The notes below the pieces were generated by a model. The model had not been told where the DNA came from. It did no database searches and was given only the letters and a program-made list of their open reading frames with translations. 51,956 nt of DNA. Source: an uncultured Prevotella sp. (GTDB lineage: Bacteria; Bacteroidota; Bacteroidia; Bacteroidales; Bacteroidaceae). Positions 35,163 through 51,209 of the stretch are shown here, piece after piece (position 1 is the stretch's first letter; every line of letters begins with the position of its first letter). The translations under genes were made by a program, and so were the position numbers. The stretch lies in assembly GCA_902798285.1 (NCBI GenBank), contig CADBVZ010000034.1, positions 1 to 51,956 on the forward strand. Reading direction: 5' to 3'.

Positions 35163-35203
35163 ATCTCTTGAGTTTTAATTGTTATTTTATCTGTTTGACG
35201 TTG

Positions 35204-35211
35204 CAAAGGTA
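35204..35211 (-). promoter_or_regulatory. -7 box of the DUF3836-like gene
   Basis: Minus-strand TACCTTTG followed by GCAACG, 42 nt before the start codon. It lies 22 nt from the first GTTA repeat of the divergent kinase promoter. Confidence 0.7.
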
Positions 35212-35233
35212 CGGAAAGTTGCAATAACATTAA

Positions 35234-35261
35234 GTTATCCGAATGTTATCTTTAGGTTAAA
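35234..35261 (+). promoter_or_regulatory. Candidate OmpR-type binding site, copy 1
   Basis: GTTA occurs at 35234, 35245 and 35256, an exact 11-bp spacing as in direct-repeat sites of OmpR/PhoB regulators. AATGTTATCTTTAGGTTAAA (35242-35261) is repeated exactly at 38161-38180. It ends 3 nt before the -33 box of the kinase promoter. Confidence 0.6.
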
Positions 35262-35264
35262 TGT

Positions 35265-35295
35265 TTTGTGGTTTAAGAAAAAAGCCTTACCTTTG
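35265..35295 (+). promoter_or_regulatory. Promoter of the two-component system
   Basis: TTTG (35265-35268), 19 nt, TACCTTTG (35288-35295). The likely start codon at 35305 is only 9 nt downstream, giving a leaderless or near-leaderless mRNA. Confidence 0.8.
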
Positions 35296-35304
35296 CCATC
35301 GGTT

Positions 35305-36600
35305 ATGCATAGCAATAAATATAAATATGTGTCGATGGTGAGTGCCGTGGCAGTTCTTCTGCTGCTGGCGCTTTATATGTGGATGACCTATCGCTCCGTT
35401 ACCCGAGACATGACTGAGCGTGCAGGCAACCAACTCACCTGGGCCATGTTCTACGAGAGTTACCAGCGAGCCGACATCGTGACTACTGGCGATACACTTA
35501 GTCTGCCCGATGCACGAGGCAACCTATCGCTCGCCTCCTCCGTCGAAGGTATGAACGATGCCCTTAGCCGTAAGTATCACTCAGAGATATCACTCGAAAC
35601 GGTGGCCATGTTTGTCGATTCCCTGCTGAGCGTAGCCCATATCAATCGCGACGTTACCATTCAGGAGGTCGATTCCAATAGGAATGTGCTGCGCCAGAAC
35701 AATGAGCGCAGCTCGTCGTGGTCCATATTGACGAAACCCGTCAGCATCCGTCGCGATCAGTCGAGGGCTCTACAGTTAGCGCTCAATAATCCCTACCCCG
35801 AACTGGCCCGCAAGCTGAGTCCGCTCTTCCTGATCAGCGCCGTTATCCTGGGCTTCTTCGCCATCATCATCATCCAGTTGCTGCGCTTCATTACCGAACA
35901 GGAGCAGATGGCCGAACTGCGTAATGACTTCTCCTATGCGATGGTCCACGACATGAAATCCCCGCTTTCATCGATCATCATGGGCGCCCACTTCCTGCAT
36001 AGCGGCAAGGTGGACGACAAGCCCCAGATCAAGGAGAAGTATTACTCCATCATCGAGGACGAGGCCGAACATCTGCTGGCACTCGTCAACAAACTGCTTA
36101 CCATCTCGAAGCTGGAGAACAAGAAACTGATACTCAGCAAGAACGAGATCGACCTCGAGCCCATCATCGACGACCTGGTGGACAAGGCCAAGACCAAGAC
36201 CACCAAACCTCTGCAGATAACGGGCGACCTGAAGGTAAGAAACGTATGGGCCGATGAGCAGTATCTCACGGAAGCCATTGCCAATCTGCTCGATAACGCC
36301 ATCAAATACTCGAAGGACGAGATTCAGATCAAGATCAGCACCCTCGATACCGATAAGCATGTATTATTAAAGGTACGCGATAACGGCATCGGCATCTCGA
36401 AGGAGGAGCAGAGGATCATCTTCGACAAGTTCGGACGTGCTGCCATCCACGAGAAGAACCGCACGGGTGGCGTCTCGGGCTTCGGCCTCGGACTCAACTA
36501 TGTCGATCAGGTGATGAAGGCCCATGGTGGCAAGGTGACTGTATCGAGCGAGAAAGACAACTATTCAGAATTCACTCTTTATATCCCCAAGAACGTATGA
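35305..36600 (+). CDS. Sensor histidine kinase (RprX-like)
   Basis: A membrane histidine kinase of 431 aa. ATG 35305 is chosen because it follows the promoter; an upstream in-frame Met at 35179 would precede it. Helix 1 is at about residues 9-27, a periplasmic sensor domain at 30-170 and helix 2 at about 172-195. His215 (VHDMKSPLSS) is the phosphorylation site, and NLLDNAIKYS, DNGIGIS and GFGLGL are the N, G1 and G2 ATP-binding boxes. It overlaps the regulator gene by ATGA. Similarity to Bacteroides RprX is from memory. Confidence 0.9.
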   Translation: MHSNKYKYVSMVSAVAVLLLLALYMWMTYRSVTRDMTERAGNQLTWAMFYESYQRADIVTTGDTLSLPDARGNLSLASSVEGMNDALSRKYHSEISLETVAMFVDSLLSVAHINRDVTIQEVDSNRNVLRQNNERSSSWSILTKPVSIRRDQSRALQLALNNPYPELARKLSPLFLISAVILGFFAIIIIQLLRFITEQEQMAELRNDFSYAMVHDMKSPLSSIIMGAHFLHSGKVDDKPQIKEKYYSIIEDEAEHLLALVNKLLTISKLENKKLILSKNEIDLEPIIDDLVDKAKTKTTKPLQITGDLKVRNVWADEQYLTEAIANLLDNAIKYSKDEIQIKISTLDTDKHVLLKVRDNGIGISKEEQRIIFDKFGRAAIHEKNRTGGVSGFGLGLNYVDQVMKAHGGKVTVSSEKDNYSEFTLYIPKNV

Positions 36601-37298
36601 TTAAACTATTGTTAGTAGAAGACGATGAATCGCTGGCTTACATCGAGAAGACTGGTTTGGAAGACATCATAGGCGGCTACGAGGTAACCACCGCCAAGAA
36701 TGGCAAGGAAGGTGTGAAGGCCTGGGAGGAGACGCATCCCGACGTCATCATCTCCGACATCGACATGCCCGTGATGAACGGCTTCGAGATGGTGGAACGC
36801 ATCCGCGAGACCGATGGCGACGTGATCATCATCTTCACCTCTGCCCTCACCTCGCCCAACGATGTGAAGGCCGGCTATCGCCTGGGCATCAACAACTACG
36901 TGAAGAAGCCCTTCGTTCCTGAGGAACTCGATGCCCACATACAGGCTCTGATGAAGATGCGTGGTGGCGCCAAGACGCAGAACGAGACCAGCCATTACAA
37001 GCTGGGCAAGTTCACCCTCGATGCCGATCACGCCACCCTGCGCAACGACGATACCGGCGAGGCACAGACCATCACCGTCCGCGAGGCACAGATCCTGCAG
37101 CTGTTGGCCGAGAACAAGAACAATGTGGTACGTCGCGAAGCCATACTGAGCCGCTTCTGGAACACGGAGGACGATTATTTCGCCTCGCGCTCACTCGATG
37201 TTTTCATCAATAAACTCAGGAAACTGCTGGCCGATGAGCCAAGAATCAATCTGAAGACCATTCGTGGTATCGGCCTTCAGCTGTTGGTCGAGAATTAG
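36597..37298 (+). CDS. OmpR-family response regulator (RprY-like)
   Basis: A two-domain regulator of 233 aa. The receiver domain has the acidic pair at residues 9-10, phospho-acceptor Asp54 (ISDIDMPVMNGF) and Lys in YVKKPF near 104. The C-terminal winged helix (about 130-230) shows LTVREAQILQLLAEN-type sequence and SLDVFINKLRKLL. It is coupled to the kinase by ATGA. Its stop overlaps the convergent CPBP-like gene by 4 nt. The 11-bp GTTA repeats nearby are candidate targets. Confidence 0.93.
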   Translation: MIKLLLVEDDESLAYIEKTGLEDIIGGYEVTTAKNGKEGVKAWEETHPDVIISDIDMPVMNGFEMVERIRETDGDVIIIFTSALTSPNDVKAGYRLGINNYVKKPFVPEELDAHIQALMKMRGGAKTQNETSHYKLGKFTLDADHATLRNDDTGEAQTITVREAQILQLLAENKNNVVRREAILSRFWNTEDDYFASRSLDVFINKLRKLLADEPRINLKTIRGIGLQLLVEN

Positions 37299-38098
37299 TC
37301 GATGGGCTTGTAAGGTTCCATCAGTCTCAGCGTGATGCATGCACCTGGTATCACCAACAGGGCCACCAGGATGAACCACGCCCCTGAGAGAACGGTGCCC
37401 ATCAGGAAGAGCCACACCAGCCAGAACACCACATCGCCTATAATCACAGGTATCACGCTACGGGAATACTCGTAGACCCAACCCTCCAACATGGCCATCA
37501 TAAACGCTGGCAGTATTAGCAACGGACTGTTATACAGCTTCGACACCAATACCATGATAATTGCATAAACGGTTATCACAATGGCAGGACGATGCTTCCA
37601 CTCCAGTATCTCGCGGAGCACAGCACCATAGATCACCAGATTAGCCGTTGCCTCAATCACTATGATCATCGGGATGCTAACCAGCGGATGGGTCTTCATC
37701 CAGAGAAAAGTCTTTCGCGTGGTGGAATCCGGCTCCGTGATGATCGTGCCGTCGGGCTCTATTATCGGATTATATACGATGCAATAAAGCACAGCCAGTC
37801 CTGACATAGCCATAGCTAAGGCCAGGATCACCTTCCAACGGACGTTCTGGGGAATGCGGCCCACGGAATAAGAGGCATAGCCCAGACGGAGGAACACCCA
37901 GTTAAGTACCAGCGCCAGCACCAGGATCATGCAGCAACCGCCTACCGTCATCATATTCAAGACAGAGGTGGTGCCGGTTTCATTCCCCTGGAATCCATCG
38001 ATGAATCCTGCGACGAAACCTATCACGGCCCCGCCTACGAACAGCACTCCGAGAATGATTCCGAATGCCAACAACAGATACATCAATGCCTTCTTCAT
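37295..38098 (-). CDS. CPBP-fold membrane protein lacking catalytic motif
   Basis: A polytopic membrane protein of 267 aa with about seven helices. It resembles CPBP (CAAX-protease and bacteriocin-processing) proteins, and the segment NLVIYGAVLREILEWKHRP aligns with the first catalytic motif, usually EExxFRGxLxxxL. Here the two Glu are replaced by Ala-Asn and the Arg by Tyr, so it looks like a pseudo-protease. A weak alternative is an unrelated multipass protein. Its promoter (TATCTTTG on the minus strand, 38123-38130) lacks a -33 box but has the candidate regulator site upstream. Confidence 0.6.
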   Translation of the reverse strand: MKKALMYLLLAFGIILGVLFVGGAVIGFVAGFIDGFQGNETGTTSVLNMMTVGGCCMILVLALVLNWVFLRLGYASYSVGRIPQNVRWKVILALAMAMSGLAVLYCIVYNPIIEPDGTIITEPDSTTRKTFLWMKTHPLVSIPMIIVIEATANLVIYGAVLREILEWKHRPAIVITVYAIIMVLVSKLYNSPLLILPAFMMAMLEGWVYEYSRSVIPVIIGDVVFWLVWLFLMGTVLSGAWFILVALLVIPGACITLRLMEPYKPID

Positions 38099-38191: not shown

Positions 38192-39499
38192 TTATTCCTT
38201 TTTCGGTCTGCCCAGGTTCAGGCGGAGACCTATCTGCAGGTTGAAACTGTTGGGCTTATCCTTGAAGAAGGTCTTCACCGAGCTGCCATTATCAAAGTAG
38301 TGTTTCACGCCAGGCTCAACATAGATGCCCAGCTGTGGAATCACGTCATACTCGATGCCCAGGGCGCCCTGAACCGAGAACTGCAGGCCGTCGCGCGATA
38401 CGGGATAATCCACACCCTCCTGCTTCGTCTTGGCCTTCACATTATAGTCGGCCTGTCCGCCTGCCGAGGCGTAAACACTCAGCCCCTTCCATTTCCACAG
38501 CTGATATTGCGCATTCACAGGCACACCAATATAATGCAGCGTCTGCTCCTTGGTCAATGGAATGCCGCCCATGATGCTCACAAAGTCAGAACGCAATCGG
38601 GTATATACCAAGCCCGTAGTCAGCGAAAGTCTCGATGAAATGGGGATATTTGTGGTCAGTCCAAACGCTATGGGCTGATAATGCTTCTGCTGTTCCTCGT
38701 AGTTCGCCAGATAGATCACCTCGCTGTTGGCTGCACGCGTCGAATGGCGAACCAGCAGATTATCGTGGAAGTTATAGTTCTCAGCCATCGACGGACTCAT
38801 CATCACACCATTGGCACTCATCTGATTGCCAGAGCCCGCCTGGGCATAAAGGCCGAAGCCTATCCTTCCGCGATGGCTCTTCCTCGTGGCCTCGGCTATC
38901 TTGGCGTCGAGCTGGCGAATCTGATCCTGTTCGCTAGGCAGCGTCTGCTGTGGCTCCTTAGCCTTAGGCTCCGATGAAATGGGCGATTTTACCTCTTCCC
39001 TGATGGGTTCCTCCGCCTTTTCGGGTACATTCTGGAGTATCTCCTCTTGCGCCGTAGTAACCTCCTGTGCCAAGAGCTTCGTTGGCTGAGCGCTCATTAC
39101 ACGCTGGGGCACATTCTTGGTCACCATATCATTCTGAGGTGTCTCATCTGTCGATTCCGATGAAATCGGCGATTTCTCTTCATTCTTCGCCAGAACGTCC
39201 GATTTCATCGAGCTTACGGAGGCCTCTAAAGCTTCGGCCTTCTTGGCCTTTTCGTTTTGTCCTATTTCCCACATCAGATAGCCATTGCAGGTGAGCACGC
39301 CGATAAAGGCTGCTGCCACAGCAATGCGCTTGCCCCACAAGGACATGAAACGGGCCTTAGGAGTCTCAGGCTCAGAAGGCTTCAGTACACCCTCCGCTTG
39401 CAGACGGGCCTCAATGCCAGCCCACAAGTCAGCTGGAGCAGACTCCTCGTGGTCTGCCAGCTTATCGCGTAGCCGCTGTGTCCAATCTTCCTGTTTCAT
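38192..39499 (-). CDS. Dual-membrane-spanning anti-sigma factor (Dma-type), locus 1
   Basis: A 435-aa protein with an unusual build. Residues 1-50 form a charged cytoplasmic head starting MKQEDWTQRLRDKLADHE, next to an ECF sigma gene. One helix spans about 58-77, a Pro/Glu/Lys-rich low-complexity linker about 78-208 (with KSPISSE twice), and an outer-membrane beta-barrel fills 210-435, ending FNLQIGLRLNLG. This matches the Dma class described from Bacteroides thetaiotaomicron, where one member affects outer-membrane vesicle release. Its start overlaps the sigma stop (ATGA), so both are made in balance. A paralogue is encoded at 42935-44113. Confidence 0.82.
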   Translation of the reverse strand: MKQEDWTQRLRDKLADHEESAPADLWAGIEARLQAEGVLKPSEPETPKARFMSLWGKRIAVAAAFIGVLTCNGYLMWEIGQNEKAKKAEALEASVSSMKSDVLAKNEEKSPISSESTDETPQNDMVTKNVPQRVMSAQPTKLLAQEVTTAQEEILQNVPEKAEEPIREEVKSPISSEPKAKEPQQTLPSEQDQIRQLDAKIAEATRKSHRGRIGFGLYAQAGSGNQMSANGVMMSPSMAENYNFHDNLLVRHSTRAANSEVIYLANYEEQQKHYQPIAFGLTTNIPISSRLSLTTGLVYTRLRSDFVSIMGGIPLTKEQTLHYIGVPVNAQYQLWKWKGLSVYASAGGQADYNVKAKTKQEGVDYPVSRDGLQFSVQGALGIEYDVIPQLGIYVEPGVKHYFDNGSSVKTFFKDKPNSFNLQIGLRLNLGRPKKE

Positions 39500-40041
39500 C
39501 TCTTTTGTGAGTTTAAATATTCGCTAATCATTTCTCTTAATAGCTTCTTCGCGTGGAAGAACTGTGAGGCAGAGGAGGTTTCCCTGATGCCCAGTTGCTG
39601 GGCTATTTGCTTGTGCGAGAGTTGTCCGAAGACGTACAGGTTGAGCACCATTCTGCATCCCGCCGGGAGCCTTCCTATCATCTGGTCAAGTATGTCGGGA
39701 GGCACCTCGTCCACGTCTGGCACTCCATCGTCTATGGCCTCCTCGGGTATATCTGGTATCATGGTCACTCGTTCGTGTTCCTTCACCCAGTCTAAGGCGC
39801 GGTTGGCTACTATTCTGGCCACCCAGGATTTCAGCGAGCCTTCGCCTCGATAGTCGAACTGGCGGATGGAGGTCAGAACGCTGACGAAACTGTCCTGCAA
39901 CACGTCCCTTACATCGTCGCGATCAGGAACATACCTCAGCGCTATGGCCATAGTATATCCTGAAAAGCGGTCATACAGGCGTCGCATCGCCTGGCTTTCT
40001 CCGCCTAATATCGCGTCGAGCAGTTGTCGTTCTGTCTCCAC
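39496..40041 (-). CDS. ECF-type RNA polymerase sigma factor, locus 1
   Basis: A sigma-70 family factor of 181 aa. Region 2 includes MRRLYDRFSGYTMAIALRYVPDRDDVRDVLQDSFVSV-type sequence (split here: RDDVRDVLQDSFV is the core-binding helix). Region 4 has LPAGCRMVLNLYVFGQLSHK followed by the helix-turn-helix IAQQLGIRETSSASQ. It is coupled by ATGA to the dual-membrane anti-sigma gene and is third in a minus-strand operon that begins at the promoter element near 41465. It probably directs its own operon and the other TGCAAGG-N16-GTTATA elements. Confidence 0.9.
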   Translation of the reverse strand: METERQLLDAILGGESQAMRRLYDRFSGYTMAIALRYVPDRDDVRDVLQDSFVSVLTSIRQFDYRGEGSLKSWVARIVANRALDWVKEHERVTMIPDIPEEAIDDGVPDVDEVPPDILDQMIGRLPAGCRMVLNLYVFGQLSHKQIAQQLGIRETSSASQFFHAKKLLREMISEYLNSQKR

Positions 40042-40053
40042 AGTCCTCCTCCG

Positions 40054-40689
40054 TTATTTTTTCCTTCCTTTTGTTTGGAACGACATGCGCGATGAATGAT
40101 ATTCATTACGCCATGTTCTTGTTTCTAACGTCTCCATATTTGTAACGGAAAGGCTGTCCAAGGGTACAAAGCCCGACCATACATCGTTTTCTACATCATA
40201 CATAAGGGCAGATTGTTCACCTACTAAACTCGTAGTGTTTATCCACATTTGACATTGATATTCAACATCATCCCATTTAAAATAAGTACGAGGAGTGCAT
40301 GTGCCGTTTGAGAGGTAGGCGTTGCTTGTTGAGTATCCTACATACGACAAGTCCATCAGCCAATATGATAGATGATTATATTTGAAATGTTCATCATGAA
40401 AGACTTCAGGATCTTTTTCCCTATAGAGAATACTTAGGAAATGATTCATTGGAAAATGAGAAATGACTGTGTAATAAGGATCCATTTGTGTTGAGAACGT
40501 AGCCGTATCAGCCCAATACTTATCTACAATCCATATCATGTCGTAAGAACCCTTTCCATAACGATTTACCAAATCCTGCATCTGCTTCATATTATCAACA
40601 ATATCAGCAGTCAAGTCGGCTTCTGAGTCATTCGAGCACGATGCAGTAATCAATACACCTATTATTAATAACAATACCAGCTTCTTCAT
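40054..40689 (-). CDS. Surface-type lipoprotein, locus 1, unknown function
   Basis: A 211-aa lipoprotein with signal peptide MKKLVLLLIIGVLITAS and Cys18, followed by SNDSEAD, an acidic surface-export signal. The mature part is rich in Tyr, Asp and Trp (WIVDKYWADTATF, HLSYWLMDLSYVGY), suggesting a beta-rich fold. I do not recognise a family. It lies between the DUF4377-like lipoprotein (3 nt gap) and the sigma gene (12 nt gap), so it is part of the sigma-anti-sigma operon and may be a ligand or modulator of the barrel. Confidence 0.7.
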   Translation of the reverse strand: MKKLVLLLIIGVLITASCSNDSEADLTADIVDNMKQMQDLVNRYGKGSYDMIWIVDKYWADTATFSTQMDPYYTVISHFPMNHFLSILYREKDPEVFHDEHFKYNHLSYWLMDLSYVGYSTSNAYLSNGTCTPRTYFKWDDVEYQCQMWINTTSLVGEQSALMYDVENDVWSGFVPLDSLSVTNMETLETRTWRNEYHSSRMSFQTKGRKK

Positions 40690-40692
40690 ATC

Positions 40693-41433
40693 TTAATACC
40701 ATTCTTTAGCTTTTGATTCAAATTCATCATAAGTAGCAGCCACCACCACACTATCTTCTGGGGCTTCCTGCTGACTAATCAACTCCTCCAGTCGAACGCG
40801 GAAACGATGTTTCCCACAAAAATAACGCTCCGATGGGGTGATGCTCAAGCGCATACGACAAGCATACTTATGAATAATGTCTGCCTCATCGTATTTTATG
40901 AACATATCATAATTGGCTCCGATGATTTCCTCTATAATCATGTCGAGCTTTTCGTCGCCATCAACATTTCGTCCCGTTAGATAATACAAGCCGTTGGAAG
41001 AAAGTGAATCAGGAAGCATCACCACCCTGCGGACATCCATCGTCACCTCGCGACGACCCTCTGTGCGAACACCCACATACTCCTTGCTTAGCAGCTTTCT
41101 CAATTTAAAGTGGTATTTGGGTGCATCCATAATCCTCGGATCGGTGCTCGTGGCATACACCAACAGCTTATAGCGATAACCCTCTTCAAAGGTAAAACCT
41201 TCGATTTCACCGGGGAAAAATCTCCCTATTTGTTCGCCCTTATCATTAACGCCTTCCATCTGCTTACCCATGCTCGTGTAGGCTCCCCAGTAGGAATAGC
41301 CCATCACGTATTCCGGCTCGATGTTTATCTCCCATGTTTCCATGGTAGACGTCCACTCGTCGTCGTCATCGTCCAGCGAACAAGCGGAAAGCATCCCCGC
41401 CAACAGCAACATCAGAATCACTTTTGCCTTCAT
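40693..41433 (-). CDS. DUF4377-like lipoprotein, locus 1
   Basis: A 246-aa lipoprotein and first gene of the minus-strand operon. The signal peptide MKAKVILMLLLAGMLSA ends at Cys18, followed by SLDDDDDE, a strong acidic surface-export signal. Residues about 30-100 (INIEPEYVMGYSYWGA, GEIEGFTFEEGYRYKLLVYAT) resemble DUF4377, and LSKEYVG with EGRREVTMDVR follows. The mature protein is clearly paralogous to the lipoprotein at 47931-48680, sharing EPEYV, YWGA, RFxPGEI, EEGYRYK, LSKEYVG and CRMRLSITPS, yet the signal peptides differ. Function unknown. Confidence 0.72.
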   Translation of the reverse strand: MKAKVILMLLLAGMLSACSLDDDDDEWTSTMETWEINIEPEYVMGYSYWGAYTSMGKQMEGVNDKGEQIGRFFPGEIEGFTFEEGYRYKLLVYATSTDPRIMDAPKYHFKLRKLLSKEYVGVRTEGRREVTMDVRRVVMLPDSLSSNGLYYLTGRNVDGDEKLDMIIEEIIGANYDMFIKYDEADIIHKYACRMRLSITPSERYFCGKHRFRVRLEELISQQEAPEDSVVVAATYDEFESKAKEWY

Positions 41434-41464
41434 CTTTTCTATCTGTTTAATGTTTGTCTATAGA

Positions 41465-41492
41465 TATAACTGCAAAAGTACAAAACCTTGCA
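41465..41492 (-). promoter_or_regulatory. ECF-type promoter element P1
   Basis: On the minus strand TGCAAGG (41486-41492), 15 nt, GTTATA (41465-41470), upstream of the locus 1 operon. A housekeeping-like TACTTTTG lies inside the spacer. Confidence 0.7.
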
Positions 41493-41560
41493 TGGAAAAC
41501 CAAAGATTTAAGATTCATTAAGAAAAAAGCGCCCCATCCTGCATTTTTAAGGTTCTTTAA

Positions 41561-41589
41561 TGCAGTATTTTAGTCCTTTCTACGTTATA
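41561..41589 (+). promoter_or_regulatory. ECF-type promoter element P2
   Basis: TGCAGTA (41561-41567, a variant of TGCAAGG), 16 nt, GTTATA (41584-41589), upstream of the locus 2 operon. The spacer lacks a TAnnTTTG box. Confidence 0.6.
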
Positions 41590-41611
41590 ATAATAAAAAG
41601 ATATAGAGCGT

Positions 41612-42388
41612 ATGGTAGAACAAAGAATGAACTTAAAGCGAATCATGCCATTGGTGCTGTTGGTGCTGACAGCTCTTGTTATGGGCTGCGGCAAGGAGGA
41701 AGGGGGCGAAGCGGAATCGCAATACGGAAAAAAAACTAATGAAGGTTTAGTCAAAAAGGATACTACGGAGGTAGAAAAAAAGAAAAACGATACCATCCCC
41801 TCAAACACCATACCGAAGTTAACATGCTATTTCAGGGGTGTCTGGTCAGTTGATGGCGTGTCTGTTGATACTTTAAATGTCGAGGCCAGTACCTCGGATA
41901 GTCGGAATATATTGGCTTTCTATGGGTTTCCTTACAGGACTCTGGTAAAAGAGGTAGCCCCACAGGTGAAAGTGACCAAAATCACAAACGACATACCTAC
42001 CGGAGCCACTTTACACGATGAGGATTCCTTGTATTTCCAGACATTAAAAAAATGTGGCAATAATCAGGATTGTTTAGCGGCCTTTTTTGGTTATGACTAT
42101 CGATGTATCGGTGTATCGGCAAGCGGGATCTACCTTGAGCTACCCCCAGGGCAAAACCACACCATACGTTATCTCTTCTTTGTTGTTACTACCGATCAGG
42201 GGAACTATTTCCCCGTCATAGTAAGCGTAGTACCTGATAAATCTACGGCTGTCTTAGATATCAAGGGCAAGAGTTTTTCCTGTGTACTGACAATATCGCA
42301 GATAGAGAGCCAAGAGAATGGTGAACAGGTTATCAAGAAATACAATCCTGAATTGAAACTTAAATTTACAAGTATATATAGATTATAG
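41612..42388 (+). CDS. Lipoprotein heading the locus 2 operon, unknown function
   Basis: A 258-aa lipoprotein. The start at 41612 gives MVEQRMNLKRIMPLVLL; ATG 41627 is an alternative. The lipobox is LVMGC with Cys26, followed by GKEEGGEAES, an acidic surface signal, then a Lys/Glu/Thr-rich linker to about residue 65. The mature domain has four or more Cys (LKKCGNNQDC, YDYRC, FSC) that could form disulfides. No family is recognised. It is 10 nt upstream of the sigma factor and takes the place of the two lipoproteins of locus 1. Confidence 0.7.
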   Translation: MVEQRMNLKRIMPLVLLVLTALVMGCGKEEGGEAESQYGKKTNEGLVKKDTTEVEKKKNDTIPSNTIPKLTCYFRGVWSVDGVSVDTLNVEASTSDSRNILAFYGFPYRTLVKEVAPQVKVTKITNDIPTGATLHDEDSLYFQTLKKCGNNQDCLAAFFGYDYRCIGVSASGIYLELPPGQNHTIRYLFFVVTTDQGNYFPVIVSVVPDKSTAVLDIKGKSFSCVLTISQIESQENGEQVIKKYNPELKLKFTSIYRL

Positions 42389-42398
42389 AACGCCTCCT

Positions 42399-42938
42399 TT
42401 GGAAACTGAGCAAGAACTGTTAGAAGCAGTAAAAGCCGGAGACCGCCAAGCGATGAGACGGCTCTATGAGCGCTATAAAGGATATGCCATGTCGATAGGA
42501 CTGAGGTATATTCCTGAGCATTATGACGTGGAGGATGTGGTACAGGATGCTTTCATCAACATTATCACCTCTATCCATCGATTCAACTTCCAAGGCGAGG
42601 GCTCGCTTACGGCCTGGATTGGGAGAACGGTAGTAAACAAGGCCTTCGATTTCGTGAGACACCATGAGCGAATCAGCTTTACGGGCACCATCCCAGACAT
42701 AGCCGACGAGGAGCCCGACATAGAAAGCATACCGCCAGAGGTGCTCACAAAAATGATTGCGCAACTGCCTTCGGGCTACAGATTGGTACTCAATCTCCAT
42801 GTATTTGAACATTGCTCTCACAAGGAAATCGCCCAAAGATTAGGCATCAAGGAGAAGTCGTCAGCCTCCCAGTTAACAAGAGCAAAGATGATTCTGACGA
42901 AGATGACAAAAGAGTATATAAAACGACACGGGATATGA
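42399..42938 (+). CDS. ECF-type RNA polymerase sigma factor, locus 2
   Basis: A sigma-70 family factor of 179 aa, paralogous to the one at 39496-40041. Both begin METE-QxLL and contain QAMRRLYxRxxGYxM. The region 2 helix is HYDVEDVVQDAFINI, and region 4 has LPSGYRLVLNLHVFEHCSHK and IAQRLGIKEKSSASQ. Alignment with its paralogue puts the start at TTG 42399, a rare start codon, and no ATG fits upstream of the conserved core. The gene is coupled by ATGA to the anti-sigma gene. Confidence 0.88.
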   Translation: METEQELLEAVKAGDRQAMRRLYERYKGYAMSIGLRYIPEHYDVEDVVQDAFINIITSIHRFNFQGEGSLTAWIGRTVVNKAFDFVRHHERISFTGTIPDIADEEPDIESIPPEVLTKMIAQLPSGYRLVLNLHVFEHCSHKEIAQRLGIKEKSSASQLTRAKMILTKMTKEYIKRHGI

Positions 42939-44113
42939 AACAAGAGAAATGGGCCGAAAGGTTGGAAAACCACCTGAAGAACTACCGCGAGGAGCCTCAG
43001 CGCGACTTGTGGGAGGGAATCGATGCTGCACTCGACAAGAAGGCGAGCCAGCATGCCCGTGTTGTAAGCCTGCGTCGTTGGATGGTGGCAGCATCGCTGG
43101 TTGGCGTATTGTCAGGAGGAGCATATTTGTTCTGGAATCATTCTGAGCCCGACGATACCATCGCGCCATCGCCAGCATTAGCGGAGGCATCTGTCCAGAA
43201 CGACATCATAGAGCCAGCCATAACAATCGCCGACAGCTCGCGCACTACTATTAGTAAGCCTGTAAATCGCGCTTACAAGCCTCTGGCTCAGGCTGCGGAG
43301 AAAGAAGAGTTGGATATCGCAGACGTCAAGCCTGAAGTAATGCGGCCCACGTCAGAGCCGGCGAAACAGACGGAAACCGATAAGGAGAAGGTAGAGCAGA
43401 AGAGGCCCCATCATGACTATCTGCCAGAGAGGACGATAGGCCGCAGGCCGCAACCCTCCAGCCGCAGGGTAACAATGAATCTCTATGCATCGTCTGCCTT
43501 AGGCGATTATAATCATCGTAATGGTGTGGAGATGAGTCCGTCGCTGTTGAGCAACTTCGCGATGACCCGTAGTGAAGCGGCCTCTACGCGTGGTGATGTG
43601 GTCTATCTGGTAGGCTATGAAGAAAGGCAGAGTCATGACCACCCCATCTCGTTTGGACTTACCTTGAGCTATCCGCTCGCCAAGAGATTAGCCCTCAGCT
43701 CCGGATTAGTGTACACCAAACTGAACTCCGATTTCCTGACTATCATGCAAAGCAATCAGGTGAGCCGCCATCAGACACTCCATTATATAGGTGTTCCCCT
43801 GAACATTCAGTTCTCATTCTGGCGTTGGCACGGACTTAACACATATCTTTCGGCAGGTGGACTGGCTGAATGGAATGTGAAGGCTACGGCCAATACCGAC
43901 GGAGTGGATCAGGAGATGAAGAAAGACCGCATGCAATGGTCGGTTAATGGCAGCGTCGGCATACAATATGATATCATTCCCCAGTTCGGAATCTACGCAG
44001 AATCAGGCGTCCGCCATTATTTCGATAATGGCAGCAACGTCAGCAATTTCTACAAGGACAAGCCCACCAGCCTCAATCTCCAACTCGGCCTCCGCCTGAA
44101 CTTAGGGAAATAA
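42935..44113 (+). CDS. Dual-membrane-spanning anti-sigma factor (Dma-type), locus 2
   Basis: A 392-aa paralogue of the locus 1 protein. ATG 42935 overlaps the sigma stop as ATGA; an upstream in-frame Met lies inside the sigma gene and is rejected. The cytoplasmic head is MKQEKWAERLENHLKNYREE, the membrane helix is at about 50-67, a charged linker at 68-175, and a beta-barrel at about 178-392 ending LNLQLGLRLNLGK. Shared barrel motifs with locus 1 include SMSxxFxxR-type repeats, QTLHYIGVPxN, LSAGG, GIQYDIIPQFGIY and HYFDNGS. The linkers differ strongly in sequence, as expected for a spacer. Confidence 0.82.
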   Translation: MKQEKWAERLENHLKNYREEPQRDLWEGIDAALDKKASQHARVVSLRRWMVAASLVGVLSGGAYLFWNHSEPDDTIAPSPALAEASVQNDIIEPAITIADSSRTTISKPVNRAYKPLAQAAEKEELDIADVKPEVMRPTSEPAKQTETDKEKVEQKRPHHDYLPERTIGRRPQPSSRRVTMNLYASSALGDYNHRNGVEMSPSLLSNFAMTRSEAASTRGDVVYLVGYEERQSHDHPISFGLTLSYPLAKRLALSSGLVYTKLNSDFLTIMQSNQVSRHQTLHYIGVPLNIQFSFWRWHGLNTYLSAGGLAEWNVKATANTDGVDQEMKKDRMQWSVNGSVGIQYDIIPQFGIYAESGVRHYFDNGSNVSNFYKDKPTSLNLQLGLRLNLGK

Positions 44114-44134
44114 ACTCAATTAAACAACATGGAT

Positions 44135-44629
44135 ATGAAACGAACATTCAAAACTTTAGGTCTTTTCCTGTCGGCCTTCTTCCTGCTGACGGGTTGTAGT
44201 AGCGATGATCATGAAGGAACGACTGATGCTTCGTTATTTCAAGTTAGAAACTTTGCCAACTCAGGCTGCAAGAAGGTTGGTGAGGCAACAACCAGAGGAG
44301 GATATTTCGCAGATTATCCGGAGTACGTTGAATATAAGAGTATGAAAGATGGGTTCTTGTCCCTCAGTCATGTGAACGCTGCTTTCAATTGTGAACCTGG
44401 CGAACTGAAAACTCAGGCAACTATAGAAGATAATGTCATTAAACTCTTAGAAACAGAAGAACACCCAGGAGTCAACTGCATCTGTCCCTATGATCTTTAT
44501 TGCGAAATAGGTCCATTAAATGATGGCAACTATACTATTATCATTTACAATGGTTTTTACGAAAATGGTGAACGCGCCCGTTTCAGCATTACTTATAAGA
44601 ACAACCTTAGCGGCAAGTACGATTTCTGA
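44135..44629 (+). CDS. Lipoprotein with shared leader, after locus 2 anti-sigma
   Basis: A lipoprotein of 164 aa from ATG 44135 (44129 is an in-frame alternative). The leader MKRTFKTLGLFLSAFF and lipobox LTGC are almost identical to those at 47931 and 50682, with only a couple of nucleotide differences to 47931. After the Cys comes SSDDHE, an acidic surface signal. The mature domain has six Cys (NCEPGE, NCICPYDLYC) and an YIE/EYK-like beta-sandwich style, resembling small Bacteroidales lipoproteins of unknown role. It follows the anti-sigma gene by 21 nt with no promoter element of its own, so it is part of the operon. Confidence 0.72.
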   Translation: MKRTFKTLGLFLSAFFLLTGCSSDDHEGTTDASLFQVRNFANSGCKKVGEATTRGGYFADYPEYVEYKSMKDGFLSLSHVNAAFNCEPGELKTQATIEDNVIKLLETEEHPGVNCICPYDLYCEIGPLNDGNYTIIIYNGFYENGERARFSITYKNNLSGKYDF

Positions 44630-44763: not shown

Positions 44764-44792
44764 TGCAAGGTTTTCGTATCTTTGCAGTTATA
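44764..44792 (+). promoter_or_regulatory. ECF-type promoter element P3
   Basis: TGCAAGG (44764-44770), 16 nt, GTTATA (44787-44792), before the lipoprotein at 44816. TATCTTTG is present in the spacer (44777-44784). Confidence 0.7.
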
Positions 44793-44815
44793 ATAGTGTA
44801 CCAATAATAGGGTTT

Positions 44816-46111
44816 ATGAATAGAACTATAAAAATTCTTGGCTTCTGCCTGATAGTGATGATGCTGCTTTCAGCATGTACCAAAGAAGATGACGGCCCTT
44901 CGGCCACATGTCTTTGCGATGTCATTTTTGCAGGAACAGTCAGCAATAAGTTGGCCACCGTGAAGTATAACAAGAAATTGCAGAAATGGTATCTTGTAAG
45001 GCCGGAACGCCAGCAATATGAATTCTTTCATGAGTATTACCCCCAGAATATGGATAAGACTTTTCAGAAGGAGGGACTTGGAGTCAGATTCTCGGGCGAT
45101 GCTTATTATATGAGCATTGAAGGCGATGCTACTACCACAGATGAGGATGATGGTGAGATAGTTAATCGCGCTTGCCTCGATCTGCTTACCATATCAGAGA
45201 CTACCAGTCTGGAACCTCTGGAAGGAGAATGGCGACTTGTGGGATGGCAATACCAAGGCAATTGGTGGCAGGTAGATCCTTATATCGTAGGACCTTACAA
45301 GTTCAGTCTGAAGGTAATTCCCGATTATGATTATATGGTAGCTTCCTCTCTGAATCATCAGTCTGCCAGTTTTATGAAGACCACTCTCGTCGACGATAAG
45401 ATCCTCTTCGACACGTGTTTTCATGAAAAAGGCCTTTCTATTATTGAGGATGCTCAATTCTTCGACAAACACATTGAAGACATCAAGTCATACCAGAGAG
45501 ACGGTTCCCAGCTGAAACTCTACTTTGGTGGTTCAGATTATTTCCTCTATACCAACGACTTTGACGATAATAAGCCGTTTAGCGACGACAGATGGTTTGA
45601 TGGTCCTGACTATCCTTATGTGGCAGAGTTGATAGAAATTGATAATGGTAAGGGAGAAGTAACGATGAAAATCATTGATGTACCCATGTATCCCACTTCG
45701 GGAACATACCCTAGCGTCTATCTCCGTCATCCAGGAGCACAGAGCATCTGCCACTTTAAACTCTCCGATTGGGAAGAGAAGAACATGAAGGCTGGCGATA
45801 GGTTGTTCTGCAATATTACCCGTTTCCAGCAGACGGATGATAATGAGCCCAATCGCACCTATAGTTGCGAGGTGAAGCCTTATAAGAATCAGACGCTCGT
45901 GGAAAATGGAACTGGGTCCATCCGCTATGAAGACCATCTTGGTTGGTATATTCAAACAGACTATCCCAAGACCCGCTATTACCCAATGAAGGGCTTTGCT
46001 GAGGAATTCCAGAAGGAAGGTCTTAATGTCGTATTCTCAGGTAACCGCTATAACACGCAAGAGAATAGTAGCTACTATTTCATCGACCTCACATCAATTA
46101 AAACTCATTAA
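44816..46111 (+). CDS. Three-part lipoprotein with duplicated outer domains
   Basis: A 431-aa lipoprotein. The leader MNRTIKILGFCLIVMMLLSA with Cys21, followed by TKEDDG, belongs to the same leader family in diverged form. Residues about 35-105 (WYLVRPERQQYEFF, FQKEGLGVRFSGDAYY) and about 365-430 (GWYIQTDYPKTRYY, FQKEGLNVVFSGNRYN) are internal repeats. Between them lies a segment starting LEPLEGEWRLVGWQYQGNWW, reminiscent of META/lipocalin-like domains, then a beta-rich stretch. The gene has its own P3 element. The family is not recognised beyond this layout. Confidence 0.72.
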   Translation: MNRTIKILGFCLIVMMLLSACTKEDDGPSATCLCDVIFAGTVSNKLATVKYNKKLQKWYLVRPERQQYEFFHEYYPQNMDKTFQKEGLGVRFSGDAYYMSIEGDATTTDEDDGEIVNRACLDLLTISETTSLEPLEGEWRLVGWQYQGNWWQVDPYIVGPYKFSLKVIPDYDYMVASSLNHQSASFMKTTLVDDKILFDTCFHEKGLSIIEDAQFFDKHIEDIKSYQRDGSQLKLYFGGSDYFLYTNDFDDNKPFSDDRWFDGPDYPYVAELIEIDNGKGEVTMKIIDVPMYPTSGTYPSVYLRHPGAQSICHFKLSDWEEKNMKAGDRLFCNITRFQQTDDNEPNRTYSCEVKPYKNQTLVENGTGSIRYEDHLGWYIQTDYPKTRYYPMKGFAEEFQKEGLNVVFSGNRYNTQENSSYYFIDLTSIKTH

Positions 46112-47876: not shown

Positions 47877-47905
47877 TGCAAGGTTTTCGACCCTTCGCAG
47901 TTATA
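47877..47905 (+). promoter_or_regulatory. ECF-type promoter element P4
   Basis: TGCAAGG (47877-47883), 16 nt, GTTATA (47900-47905), before the lipoprotein at 47931. The housekeeping box is replaced by ACCCTTCG, so only the bipartite element remains. Confidence 0.7.
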
Positions 47906-47930
47906 ATAATAAAACCAATAAGATAGTTTT

Positions 47931-48680
47931 ATGAAACGAACATTCAAAACATTAGGTCTTTTCCTGTCGGCCTTCTTCCTGCTGACAGGTTGTAGTAGCG
48001 ATGATGAAGAAAACTACACCGAGGTATGGACAATGTATATAGAGCCTGAATATGTGATAGGTTCTTCATATTGGGGTGCAGAAGCGCCTTTGCAACTCCA
48101 GATGGAAGCCACAAATGATAATGGCGAACGTATTGGAAGGTTTTACCCAGGCGAAATTCAAGGATTTGAATACGAGGAGGGGTATCGCTACAAGGTTGAA
48201 GTATATGCAACTGATAGATTCGCAAAAAGTGGTCAAATCATTATCGATGCTTCGAAGTATTCATTTGTATTGAAGAATGTGTTGAGTAAAGAATACGTAG
48301 GCTACCGTCAAGAAGGAAGACGTGAGGTGACGATGGATCTTAGAATGGTAAAATTCTATAATTCACCCTATTCAACAGAATACCACCATTTCCTAAGTGG
48401 CACCACAACCGACGGTAGCGAGACCATTAATTTCAGCGAACTGGAGATCATTGGCTTGAATACGAGGAATCTTGTTGACTGGAGTACAAATGACGGAAAT
48501 CACACCTACTATCGTTGCCGTATGCGATTGAGCATCACACCCTCCGTACGTCCTGTTTATAGGGAGCACATGCAAAGATACCGTTTCTTAGAGCTCATCA
48601 GTCGCGAACGTTTAGACTCAGACAGCGTAGTCGTTGCCACAAATATGGAAGAAATATTAGAGATGGAGAAGTTATTATAA
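47931..48680 (+). CDS. DUF4377-like lipoprotein with shared leader
   Basis: A 249-aa lipoprotein. The leader MKRTFKTLGLFLSAFF with Cys21 and SSDDEE matches the genes at 44135 and 50682. The mature domain (IEPEYVIGSSYWGA, RFYPGEIQGFEYEEGYRYK, LSKEYVGYRQEGRREVTMDL, CRMRLSITPS) is paralogous to the locus 1 lipoprotein at 40693-41433. It thus joins a locus 1-type mature protein to a locus 2-type leader. Driven by P4. Function unknown. Confidence 0.75.
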   Translation: MKRTFKTLGLFLSAFFLLTGCSSDDEENYTEVWTMYIEPEYVIGSSYWGAEAPLQLQMEATNDNGERIGRFYPGEIQGFEYEEGYRYKVEVYATDRFAKSGQIIIDASKYSFVLKNVLSKEYVGYRQEGRREVTMDLRMVKFYNSPYSTEYHHFLSGTTTDGSETINFSELEIIGLNTRNLVDWSTNDGNHTYYRCRMRLSITPSVRPVYREHMQRYRFLELISRERLDSDSVVVATNMEEILEMEKLL

Positions 48681-48697: not shown

Positions 48698-48799
48698 ATG
48701 CGTAAACTCTCCTTTATCGTTTTATTCCTCTGCATGATTCAAGCCATCCCGTGCAAGGTTTTACCACGTGGACAGTTATATGAATATACCAAACGATGA
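48698..48799 (+). other. Possible 33-codon secreted peptide or leader remnant
   Basis: The ORF MRKLSFIVLFLCMIQAIPCK and onward (33 aa) looks like a signal peptide without a mature domain and spans element P7. It may be a chance reading or the remains of a lipoprotein gene. Confidence 0.3.
48752..48780 (+). promoter_or_regulatory. ECF-type promoter element P7
   Basis: TGCAAGG (48752-48758), 16 nt, GTTATA (48775-48780). The spacer has no TAnnTTTG box. It lies in the direction of, and about 100 nt before, the TonB-like gene. Confidence 0.6.
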
Positions 48800-48817: not shown

Positions 48818-48849
48818 TTTGGATGAATGCTTATAATTTCCTATCTTTG
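48818..48849 (+). promoter_or_regulatory. Housekeeping promoter of the TonB-like gene
   Basis: TTTG (48818-48821), 20 nt, TATCTTTG (48842-48849). The promoter shows that translation must start after 48855, not at an upstream in-frame Met. Confidence 0.8.
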
Positions 48850-48874
48850 CGCTGTATTAATGAATGCTGCTATG

Positions 48875-49708
48875 ATGAAAGGAAAATCAATCTGTAAGGT
48901 GCTGAAGACCATCCGTAAACAGGTGGCCGATGCCAATGACATTAAGTACGAGCCGCGAGAGTGTCATCATCAGGGTGACTGTCGTGGTACCTGTCCTGCT
49001 TGTGAGGCAGAAGTGAAGTATATCGAGCAGCAACTGGATCTTCGCAAGCAATTGGGCAAGGCTGTAGCTGTGGTTGGTATCTCTGCAGGACTTGCTGCCT
49101 TGACAGGTTGTAAAAATAAAAATGCGGCTATTATCAATGAGGAGGATAGTTCTTTAACGGTTGGTAAAGCTACCATAGTACCTTCTGAGCATATCGATGG
49201 CGATGTGGAGTATCAATCACCAGTGGATACGGCAATTATAGAGAAAGATCCTTCAAAAATAAAGAAACGTACAGCAGAATTCGCTGTACCAGAAAAAGAA
49301 GACTCATATGTGGAGACCTTAGGAGCAGTGTGTGTCATTGAAGAGCCTGGTCCTGTTATTACAGATCCTGTTATTGCTGATGCTCCGATGGCAAAAATAG
49401 GTGAAACCGTTGATCAAATGCCGTCTTTCCCTGGTGGGGAAAATAAAATGTTGGAATATCTTGAAAGTAATTTGCGTTATCCGGTTTTAGCAGAAGAAAA
49501 TGGCATCCAAGGCAGAGTGGTTGTTTCATTTATCATAGAAAAAGATGGTAGTATCAATGATGTAAAGGTAGAAAAACACATTGAGAAGGTATTTGATAAA
49601 GAATCTGTGCGATTGGTCAAGAATATGCCTAAATGGAATCCTGGTAAGAAAGACGGGAAACCCGTTAGAGTACGACATTCCATTCCTATTATGTTCCGAT
49701 TAAAATGA
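48875..49708 (+). CDS. TonB C-terminal-domain protein with Cys-rich N-terminus
   Basis: An energy-transducer-like protein of 277 aa from ATG 48875 (ATG 48860 and 48872 are alternatives). It begins MKGKSICKVLKTIRKQ, and CHHQGDCRGTCPACEAEV supplies a zinc-ribbon-like Cys/His set (about residues 29-46). One helix (about 60-80), a Lys/Glu/Pro-rich periplasmic spacer and a C-terminal TonB domain (about 185-277, FPGGENKMLEYLESNLRYP, GRVVVSFIIEKDGSI) follow. It would link the inner membrane to outer-membrane transporters. It is coupled by ATGA to a radical SAM gene. Confidence 0.85.
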   Translation: MKGKSICKVLKTIRKQVADANDIKYEPRECHHQGDCRGTCPACEAEVKYIEQQLDLRKQLGKAVAVVGISAGLAALTGCKNKNAAIINEEDSSLTVGKATIVPSEHIDGDVEYQSPVDTAIIEKDPSKIKKRTAEFAVPEKEDSYVETLGAVCVIEEPGPVITDPVIADAPMAKIGETVDQMPSFPGGENKMLEYLESNLRYPVLAEENGIQGRVVVSFIIEKDGSINDVKVEKHIEKVFDKESVRLVKNMPKWNPGKKDGKPVRVRHSIPIMFRLK

Positions 49709-50316
49709 AAACGCCATTGATAGGCATATGCCGACATCGGCTGGCAACTGATGGCCAGGGGGTAACTACACTCGTGGCATTCCACGGTTGTCCGCTGCGC
49801 TGTAAGTATTGTCTGAATGAGCAATGTCTTAGGCCAGACGGCGTGTGGCGGCAGATGGATGCGCTGGATATTATGAACGAGGTAATGGTAGACGACCTCT
49901 ACTTCAAGGCCACTAACGGAGGCATTACCTTTGGTGGGGGCGAGCCGCTTTTAAGAAGCGATGATATCGTGAGCTTCTGTAAACTGATGCCCCAAGAATG
50001 GCGAATTACCATCGAAACATCCCTAAACGCAGACCGCAAGCATCTGGAAGCTGTGGCCCCTTACATCGATCATTATTTTATTGATGTAAAAGATATGAAT
50101 TCCCAAATCTATCGCAGTTATACCTCCATTGACAATCGTCAGGTAATAGACAATCTTCATTGGTTGGCTGCTCATGAGGACACTCAGAAGATAACCATTC
50201 GCCTGCCACTTATTCCTGACTACAATACAGAAGCCGATATTAACAAGAGTCGCAAACAGTTAGAAGCAATGGGGTTCACAAATTTCGATTGCTTTAGCTA
50301 TAAGGTCCTACCTTAA
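49705..50316 (+). CDS. Radical SAM protein (glycyl-radical-activase-like)
   Basis: A 203-aa radical SAM protein. CPLRCKYC (about residues 29-36) is the CxxxCxxC cluster motif, and GGGEPLL binds SAM. Length and layout match activating enzymes of the NrdG/PflA superfamily, but there is no extra ferredoxin domain. The substrate is uncertain; no glycyl-radical enzyme is in the window. It is coupled to the TonB-like gene by an ATGA overlap, which is a shared Bacteroidales pairing in my memory but of unknown meaning. Confidence 0.8.
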   Translation: MKTPLIGICRHRLATDGQGVTTLVAFHGCPLRCKYCLNEQCLRPDGVWRQMDALDIMNEVMVDDLYFKATNGGITFGGGEPLLRSDDIVSFCKLMPQEWRITIETSLNADRKHLEAVAPYIDHYFIDVKDMNSQIYRSYTSIDNRQVIDNLHWLAAHEDTQKITIRLPLIPDYNTEADINKSRKQLEAMGFTNFDCFSYKVLP

Positions 50317-50483: not shown

Positions 50484-50502
50484 TTTCTATGCTTTTTACT
50501 AT

Positions 50503-50531
50503 TATAACTGCGATAGATAGAAAACCTTGCA
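50503..50531 (-). promoter_or_regulatory. ECF-type promoter element P6
   Basis: On the minus strand TGCAAGG (50525-50531), 16 nt, GTTATA (50503-50508). The housekeeping box is absent. It precedes only the leader remnant. Confidence 0.65.
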
Positions 50532-50627: not shown

Positions 50628-50656
50628 TGCAAGGATTTCGTATCTTTGCAGTTATA
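50628..50656 (+). promoter_or_regulatory. ECF-type promoter element P5
   Basis: TGCAAGG (50628-50634), 16 nt, GTTATA (50651-50656), with TATCTTTG in the spacer (50641-50648). Upstream and downstream sequence is nearly identical to P4. Confidence 0.72.
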
Positions 50657-50681
50657 ATAATAAAACCAATAAGATAGTTTT

Positions 50682-51209
50682 ATGAAGCGAACAATCAAAA
50701 CATTAGGTCTTTTCCTGTCGGCCCTCTTCCTGCTGACAGGTTGTAGTAGTAATGAGGAAGATGATAATCTGCCTGTAGATGAAAATGCCAACAAGACATT
50801 TCCGGTCATTGAAGACAAACTTGATCCGGCCGTTGTCTCTTTCTTCAACGAGACTCTTCCAAATCAGCCCTGCTACCAGCCTGTTGAAACCTTTTTCACT
50901 CCAGTTTCAGAAGAAACAAATGCTTATTCTTTGATAAATAATGAGCAGGAATTACGAGAAGCATATAAAGGCGACAAAGCCTTACCAAAAATTGACTTCG
51001 AACATTATACGCTCATCATAGGCCGAGTATATACTGGAGGTGTCAAAGTGGATCAGCAATACCTCACTAAGGAAAATGAGAACAATGTGCTTGTGTTGCA
51101 TTTGCTCCATGAGGCAGTAGTTGCTGAAATGTTCTACACCTATTATTGGGGAGTCTATCCCAAGATGACAACTGATCATATTACCATTCAATTGGTATAT
51201 GAGAAATAA
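50682..51209 (+). CDS. Lipoprotein with shared leader, unknown mature domain
   Basis: A 175-aa lipoprotein. The leader MKRTIKTLGLFLSALF with Cys21, then SSNEEDD (acidic surface signal), belongs to the shared-leader family. The mature domain is unlike the other members. The segment IDFEHYTLIIGRVYTGG is reminiscent of small Bacteroidales lipoproteins with a PrcB-like fold, and this is a weak guess. Its promoter region is nearly the same as at 47931 from about 40 nt above P5 to the lipobox. Confidence 0.72.
   Translation: MKRTIKTLGLFLSALFLLTGCSSNEEDDNLPVDENANKTFPVIEDKLDPAVVSFFNETLPNQPCYQPVETFFTPVSEETNAYSLINNEQELREAYKGDKALPKIDFEHYTLIIGRVYTGGVKVDQQYLTKENENNVLVLHLLHEAVVAEMFYTYYWGVYPKMTTDHITIQLVYEK

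Follow-up and report, generated by a model that had tools for sequence, protein, structure and literature searches.

Several extracytoplasmic function (ECF) sigma factors of Bacteroidota are paired with anti-sigma factors that span both membranes, and the excerpts of the published reports on which we draw throughout give the following picture. In Bacteroides thetaiotaomicron, loss of Dma1 or Dma2 raises vesiculation, loss of Dma2 raises expression of its own operon, and deletion of dma3 is reported not to have reversed the change in outer-membrane vesicles (PMC13088901). Loss of Reo raises NigD lipoproteins (PMC13114119), and in Phocaeicola vulgatus the sigma gene rose 33-fold on exposure to the toxin BcpT (PMC9308784). 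In the class II anti-sigma factor CnrY, the first of two helices binds sigma region 4 and the second binds region 2 (PMC7406223). The regulons of such circuits given in these excerpts come from few mutants, and the route of a signal from the outer surface to transcription via one disordered protein is an open question. Here we describe two cassettes with this layout, operons A and B, in a stretch of 51,956 bases (the window), which is the entire contig CADBVZ010000034.1 of an uncultured, rumen-type Prevotella sp. whose assembly is 84% complete and totals 3.04 Mb over 80 contigs. Most likely, they act as circuits insulated from each other, which respond to damage at the outer membrane or the tether by turning on surface lipoproteins.

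Architecture and origin of the two operons

Operons A (38192-41433, minus strand) and B (41612-44629, plus strand) diverge from an intergenic gap of 178 bp (41434-41611). Open reading frames (ORFs) and Pfam matches bear out the first-pass annotation, which had read in each of them one or more lipoproteins, an ECF sigma factor and a protein composed of head, membrane helix, tether and barrel. Operon A starts with a lipoprotein carrying DUF4377 (40693-41433; PF14302, E 6.8e-10), followed on the same minus strand by lipoprotein A (40054-40689), sigma A (39496-40041) and the Dma-like protein A of 435 amino acids (38192-39499). Operon B comprises, on the plus strand, lipoprotein B (41612-42388), sigma B (42399-42938), the Dma-like protein B (42935-44113; 392 amino acids from its ATGA start) and, 3' of it, a further lipoprotein recognised by its lipobox (44129-44629). 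Both sigma genes have non-ATG start codons, GTG in A and TTG in B, and sigma-70 regions 2 and 4 were matched in Pfam at E 5.9e-12 and 1.1e-11 in one window sigma and at 6.0e-13 and 1.2e-14 in the other. The ATGA overlap of sigma and anti-sigma genes claimed for both operons was read at both junctions. Among 215 sigma-barrel pairs, a set that counts the window in and holds some loci twice, the sigma 3' end carries ATGA in 173 and GTGA in 6, which exceeds chance.

The barrel family PF13568 scored above its cut-off in proteins A and B (E 5.6e-8 and 1.2e-6, respectively). In the structure model of protein A, two head helices (residues 4-15 and 23-35) precede a long helix (54-99) that contains the membrane segment, followed by a low-confidence region at about 100-180 and an OmpA-like barrel at 213-429 (38213-38863, minus strand), most of which has a predicted local distance difference test score (pLDDT) above 90; fold matches are from a VIA-align comparison. 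The stretch from membrane helix to barrel, roughly 130 residues long, counts 132 in A and 108 in B, its disorder being taken from the model of A, and the tether has at least 91 residues in all of 183 pairs (median 123). Proteins A and B are 42% identical over their full length (head 44%, linker 29%, barrel 53%). A C-terminal barrel, the subject of one half of the refuting test set in the first-pass annotation, is predicted in A by the model and in B by Pfam and alignment, and the proposed assignment to a dual-membrane-spanning anti-sigma class is backed by architecture, operon order and model. On this predicted architecture, proteins A and B belong to the known Dma/Reo class of Bacteroidota anti-sigma factors. 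They are laid out like Dma1, Dma2 and Reo, so the window adds members to a class that had been described before. A neighbouring ECF sigma of group ECF21 is a mark of Dma proteins, and an ECF sigma adjoins each of the two window proteins.

The same arrangement recurs in relatives. Of 235 ORFs for barrel proteins, 215 have a sigma gene directly 5' and seven are fused to sigma; for the other 13, several of them fragments at contig ends, no sigma was found. The seven fusions join sigma directly to membrane helix, tether and barrel and lack the anti-sigma head, as in Dma3 (L080 9817-11460 and L096 12893-14566, both on the minus strand, L064-L067 and L153; two of the seven are the same gene fetched twice).

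The first-pass annotation had further called the pair duplicated, and as a local duplication this did not stand. When 80 barrel proteins were placed in a maximum-likelihood tree, A fell in a 20-row clade (support 100/98) and B in a separate 10-row clade (100/100); these distinct, well-supported positions rule out a recent local duplication. By title, the 80 relatives are nearly all Prevotellaceae, many of rumen or gut origin, and five are named Hoylesella, an oral genus. Operon A also keeps a neighbourhood of its own: the response regulator at 36597-37298 has a relative (at least 60% identity) in 16 of 19 other A-clade loci and in no non-A-clade locus of L073-L152, and the histidine kinase at 35179-36600 has one in 14 of the 19. 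Its nearest named relative is in Prevotella sp. ne3005 (L073), with a barrel protein 64% identical. There, a single lipoprotein lies between operon A and a gene related to window 51329-51955, an interval that the B cassette and further genes occupy in the window; the lipoprotein at 44129-44629 shares 51% identity with a lipoprotein adjoining operon A in ne3005. The metagenome-assembled genome RGIG3308 carries an A-type (L078) and a B-type (L097) cassette on one contig, convergent by coordinates and about 15 kb apart. Among 73 cassettes, the window was the sole case of an intact second cassette as divergent neighbour. Beside the L080 cassette stand a lipoprotein, an outer-membrane protein and a 74-residue remnant of a barrel protein, and no intact second cassette. 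Between the response regulator and protein A, the membrane protein at 37295-38098 (minus strand) has a weak, below-cut-off match to Rce1-like (CAAX protease) proteins, and an ORF counterpart was found in just one of the relatives' loci searched.

The lipoprotein slot and the promoter-like sites

The gene 5' of sigma is a clade-locked lipoprotein slot and a conserved part of the cassette. An iterative hidden Markov model search linked the lipoprotein in the window slot to 75 of 80 slot genes, here called the GxW family, which fills the slot in both window operons (lipoprotein A directly 5' of sigma A, lipoprotein B 5' of sigma B); NigD or serpin takes this place in other clades. Mapped on the barrel-protein tree, the slot types of 146 labelled pairs required 5 changes, and none of 200 shuffles needed fewer than 35. 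The first-pass annotation had written of each operon's own surface lipoproteins, and the conservation of the slot carries that remark beyond what it could have known. The mature part of lipoprotein B was modelled as a small beta-barrel (pLDDT 85). By sequence, no credible solved homologue was found for the slot lipoprotein or for the barrel protein (best E 0.12 and 0.069, respectively, both with unrelated names).

Identity of the slot lipoprotein was pursued with GxW members of 140-270 residues, 66 of the 75 being aligned for Pfam and 61 for the structure model. Neither NigD_N nor NigD_C matched either window slot protein in Pfam at E up to 1, and NigD was absent from the 16 families matched by the 66 GxW members, which excludes a NigD identity. 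Both NigD domains were present in 5 of 10 slot proteins of other clades, which were chosen by size and look and not randomly. DUF4840 (PF16128) matched 7 of the 66 members at E up to 0.1 (best 8.5e-9) and neither window slot protein at E up to 1; a genome probe for it gave no match in the own genome or in the controls and is therefore uninformative on absence. In two relatives (L077 6078-7445 and L078 6072-7445), a single slot lipoprotein of 455-457 amino acids joins DUF4377-type and GxW parts, which are separate genes in window operon A.

Many cassettes are preceded by an ECF-type bipartite promoter-like motif, TGCAAG(A/G)TTT-N10/11-(C/G)(C/A)GTTATA. With a two-part matrix trained on up to 220 bases 5' of 87 GxW slot genes, the window excluded, an A-type promoter-like site TGCAAGGTTT-N10-GCAGTTATAT was found before operon A (41464-41492, minus strand; held-out score 29.9, also matched by the genome pattern given below) and a B-type site TGCAGTATTT-N11-TACGTTATAA before operon B (41561-41590, plus strand; held-out score 22.4). 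A score of at least 10 was reached by 57 of the 87 training sequences, against 18 of 435 block-shuffled copies. Because the matrix was fitted to the training sequences, held-out scores weigh more, and among held-out cassettes 17 of 32 with NigD and 4 of 4 with serpin reached this score. The B-clade -35 box TGCAGTATTT occurs exactly in 8 of 10 rows, and TGCAAGGTTT together with CAGTTATA in 8 of the 17 A-clade rows examined, the window being included in both counts. The use of different -35 boxes by the two clades suggests two insulated circuits, and the sole match of the B-type pattern in the own genome is the one 5' of operon B. An earlier motif, TGCAAGAT with one mismatch, was superseded by the matrix, since it occurred in 74 of 125 cassettes but also in 82 of 305 other genes. 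The literature turned up other Bacteroides motifs alone, no search by the letters of this motif having been made.

The A-type pattern points to a set of genes spread over the genome. TGCANNNTTTN{11,14}GTTWTA gave 12 matches in the own genome, compared with 1 for the reversed pattern, and 10 of the 12 have an exported-protein ORF within about 30 bases (ORFs judged by eye). Nine of these ORFs encode lipoproteins, including a serpin on contig C7, and the tenth, on C12, encodes a probable outer-membrane barrel; the lipoprotein ORFs on C6 and C11 are short and may be frame-broken. The window holds six of the 12, and a seventh window site was found by the matrix only. Apart from operon A, A-type sites lie on the plus strand at 44764-44793, before a 431-residue lipoprotein that is a predicted sigma A target (44816-46111, plus strand); at 47877-47906, before a lipoprotein with DUF4377 (47931-48680, plus strand; PF14302, E 1.9e-7); at 48752-48781, before a TonB C-terminal domain protein (48827-49708); and, by matrix only with a score of 22.5, at 50628-50657, before a lipoprotein (50682-51209). 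The strong A-type site at 50502-50531 (minus strand), within 130 nt of which no ORF of at least 60 amino acids starts, would drive antisense transcription in the direction of the radical SAM gene at 49705-50316. The lipoproteins at 44129-44629, 47931-48680 and 50682-51209 have nearly alike signal peptides and differing mature parts, and two of the three share near-identical promoter-like sites, as if an expression unit had been copied and refitted.

A stricter pattern gave 71 matches in 45 of 199 genomes of the genus, against 12 for its reverse (sums by eye). The own genome had 11, the most of all 199, followed by genomes with 5 and 4. Five of these 11 sites lie at 41-51 kb of the window, and the 11 precede eight lipoproteins (one a serpin), one outer-membrane protein, one TonB-domain protein and, in one case, no ORF. 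Of the 60 matches in other genomes, at least 19 are same-strand sites no more than 2.3 kb 5' of a Dma cassette (by eye). Across 81 loci (1.27 Mb), 112 sites scored at least 20, and 53 of them lie 5' of a listed cassette sigma. The other 59 still include some promoters of cassettes in which sigma was truncated or not long enough to be listed. These 59 sites precede a lipobox ORF in 45 cases, a signal peptide by rule in 2, neither by rule in 11 (several of these ORFs look exported by eye) and no ORF in 1; as background, a slightly different rule assigns a lipobox to 202 of the 1027 genes in these loci. By the rule used, none of the 35 genes at window 1-38 kb has a lipobox, which sets the lipoprotein island at 40-51 kb apart.

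Serpins recur around these cassettes. A profile identified serpins in 13 of the 64 genes that are divergent neighbours to a cassette (one, common to two cassettes, counted twice), and 37 of 60 genomes of the genus have a serpin. Thirty serpin loci were fetched, and 19 of them were testable, 7 having no ORF by the rule and 4 too little upstream sequence; a site scoring at least 15 was found for 10 of the 19, against 3 of 190 shuffled sequences. The serpin lipoprotein of the own genome, which stands alone at C7:26048-27350, has a promoter-like site directly 5' of the gene, and gave none in the 19-serpin test, where an upstream start was taken. A further serpin of the own genome, on C51, is in two pieces. 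Our literature search found no paper joining a serpin with a Bacteroidetes ECF sigma and anti-sigma. The third barrel protein of the own genome (L033, C16:48921-50009) has its own sigma and no lipoprotein 5' of the pair; in the tree it groups with L112_3111 and L099_6439, both of which have a serpin in the slot, and its sigma has a weak promoter-like site (score 13.4) directly 5'.

The proposed circuits and competing explanations

We read A and B as self-contained Dma/Reo-type circuits from surface to gene, in which disturbance would free sigma to act on its own operon and, for A, on a surface set as well (probability about 0.65). The barrel would sit in the outer membrane, the disordered tether would span the periplasm, and one helix would cross the inner membrane, so that the two-helix head could keep its own ECF sigma inactive at the inner face. 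Were the barrel, the tether or the surrounding outer membrane disturbed, the head would be released or cut away, and the freed sigma would transcribe its own operon from the promoter-like site described. Sigma A would additionally reach the dispersed gene set, which encodes surface lipoproteins along with an outer-membrane protein and a serpin; given their different -35 boxes, A and B should act separately despite their back-to-back position. In the headless fusions, cutting would be the simplest means of release, and by extension proteolysis is a plausible step in A and B. What the analysis shows is the predicted architecture, the order of the genes, the conservation of the slot and the promoter-like motif with its distribution over the genome; we infer the reading of these sites by sigma A and sigma B, the binding of head to sigma, the autoregulation and the nature of the signal.

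Contact between head and sigma was examined by mutual information and mean-field couplings over 183 pairs (effective 151) with 32 pairing shuffles. The mean of the top 20 head couplings was 1.09, against at most 0.75 in the shuffles. The two strongest head couplings join helix 2 to sigma region 2; among the top 30 head pairs, region 2 takes 7 of 15 helix-2 pairs, which is not above chance (p 0.47). The anti-sigma model NF052375 matched A below cut-off and B not at all, and matched 52 of 77 relatives at E 0.01; as proof of an anti-sigma head it was rejected, being unspecific, with matches also in 7 of 14 control genomes.

Several results weigh against these circuits as we draw them. The largest single head coupling (1.59) lies below the largest shuffle maximum (1.76), the top-20 means were close for head (4.13) and barrel control (4.04), and the strongest single sigma coupling is to the barrel and not to the head. 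On the promoter side, 30 of the 87 training sequences score below 10 and 46 of 256 other genes of the same loci score at least 10, so cassettes do not all carry the motif, nor are they alone in carrying it. The best sites of the remaining 9 of 17 A-clade rows score 2.6 to 19.0, and the two own-genome sites beyond the ten near exported-protein ORFs precede the TonB C-terminal domain protein (48752) or no ORF (50502-50531).

Among the alternatives, a ligand on the barrel or on the lipocalin-like lipoprotein might reshape the barrel so that the head drops sigma uncut, similar to FecA-FecR within one polypeptide. We consider this unlikely, in that a stretch of at least 91 residues, disordered in the model of A, should transmit shape poorly, and where sigma is fused to the membrane helix there is no head that could let go. 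Somewhat less likely still, the motif may belong to another regulator or ECF sigma, with the Dma cassettes as mere members of its regulon. In favour of such a regulator, 41 of the 60 matches outside the own genome are not 5' of a Dma cassette among the matches listed (by eye) and 9 of 17 A-clade rows are without an A-type site; on the other side, the -35 boxes of A and B cassettes track the clade of the linked sigma, and related sites (score at least 10) recur before the NigD and serpin cassettes counted above. An assembly error fusing two unrelated contigs at 41.5 kb is very improbable: the window makes up a full contig in an incomplete genome and its intact divergent pair has no second among the 73 cassettes, but A-type sites and related lipoproteins lie on either side of the join, genes from both sides match the operon A neighbourhood in ne3005, and RGIG3308 carries both cassette types on one contig.

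Beyond the circuits themselves, we tentatively suggest, as a reading with rather less than even odds, that Dma circuits of Prevotellaceae are a modular alarm for surface attack with the tether or barrel as bait, each cassette having its own lipoprotein, the A regulon having grown and B having been added back-to-back. The sensor would be paired with one of three kinds of lipoprotein (NigD, serpin or lipocalin-like GxW), and the released sigma would turn on lipoproteins and surface serpins via a dedicated promoter; here the A regulon would comprise about ten exported proteins, with a separately wired second cassette set beside A. A searchable promoter motif would allow Dma regulons to be read from sequence alone, predicting the genes of each sigma, and the output predicted here is surface protease inhibitors and lipoproteins. 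With the slot locked to clade, whether the sensor has a partner can be put directly to the test.

Comparison with described systems

In FecA-FecR signalling, an outer-membrane barrel controls a cytoplasmic ECF sigma, as is proposed here. FecA-FecR uses at least two proteins and a TonB-dependent receptor, whereas the window proteins are each one polypeptide with a small OmpA-like barrel. CnrY is not known to have a barrel. The head of protein A resembles CnrY in consisting of two helices only, a likeness drawn by helix count (PMC7406223).

Further likenesses lie within Bacteroidota, as far as the excerpts describe them. EcfO-Reo of Bacteroides fragilis and Phocaeicola vulgatus shares the order of sigma followed by a spanning anti-sigma factor; that system is induced by antibacterial toxins and has NigD lipoproteins in its regulon, one of which by locus tag adjoins the sigma gene, whereas the window lipoprotein is of a different type, the comparison being by description (PMC9308784, PMC13114119). 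The seven fusions in relatives are like Dma3 of B. thetaiotaomicron, with a sigma domain attached in one chain to the membrane helix, tether and barrel (PMC13088901); in the window, by contrast, sigma is a protein of its own and A and B retain a head. Counterparts are also Dma1/Das1 and Dma2/Das2 of the same species, which have a head, a membrane helix, a disordered tether, a C-terminal barrel and an adjacent ECF sigma (PMC13088901). Unlike Dma1 and Dma2, to which they are likened by the described layout, the window cassettes carry in their slot a GxW lipoprotein without a NigD Pfam match, and they stand back-to-back.

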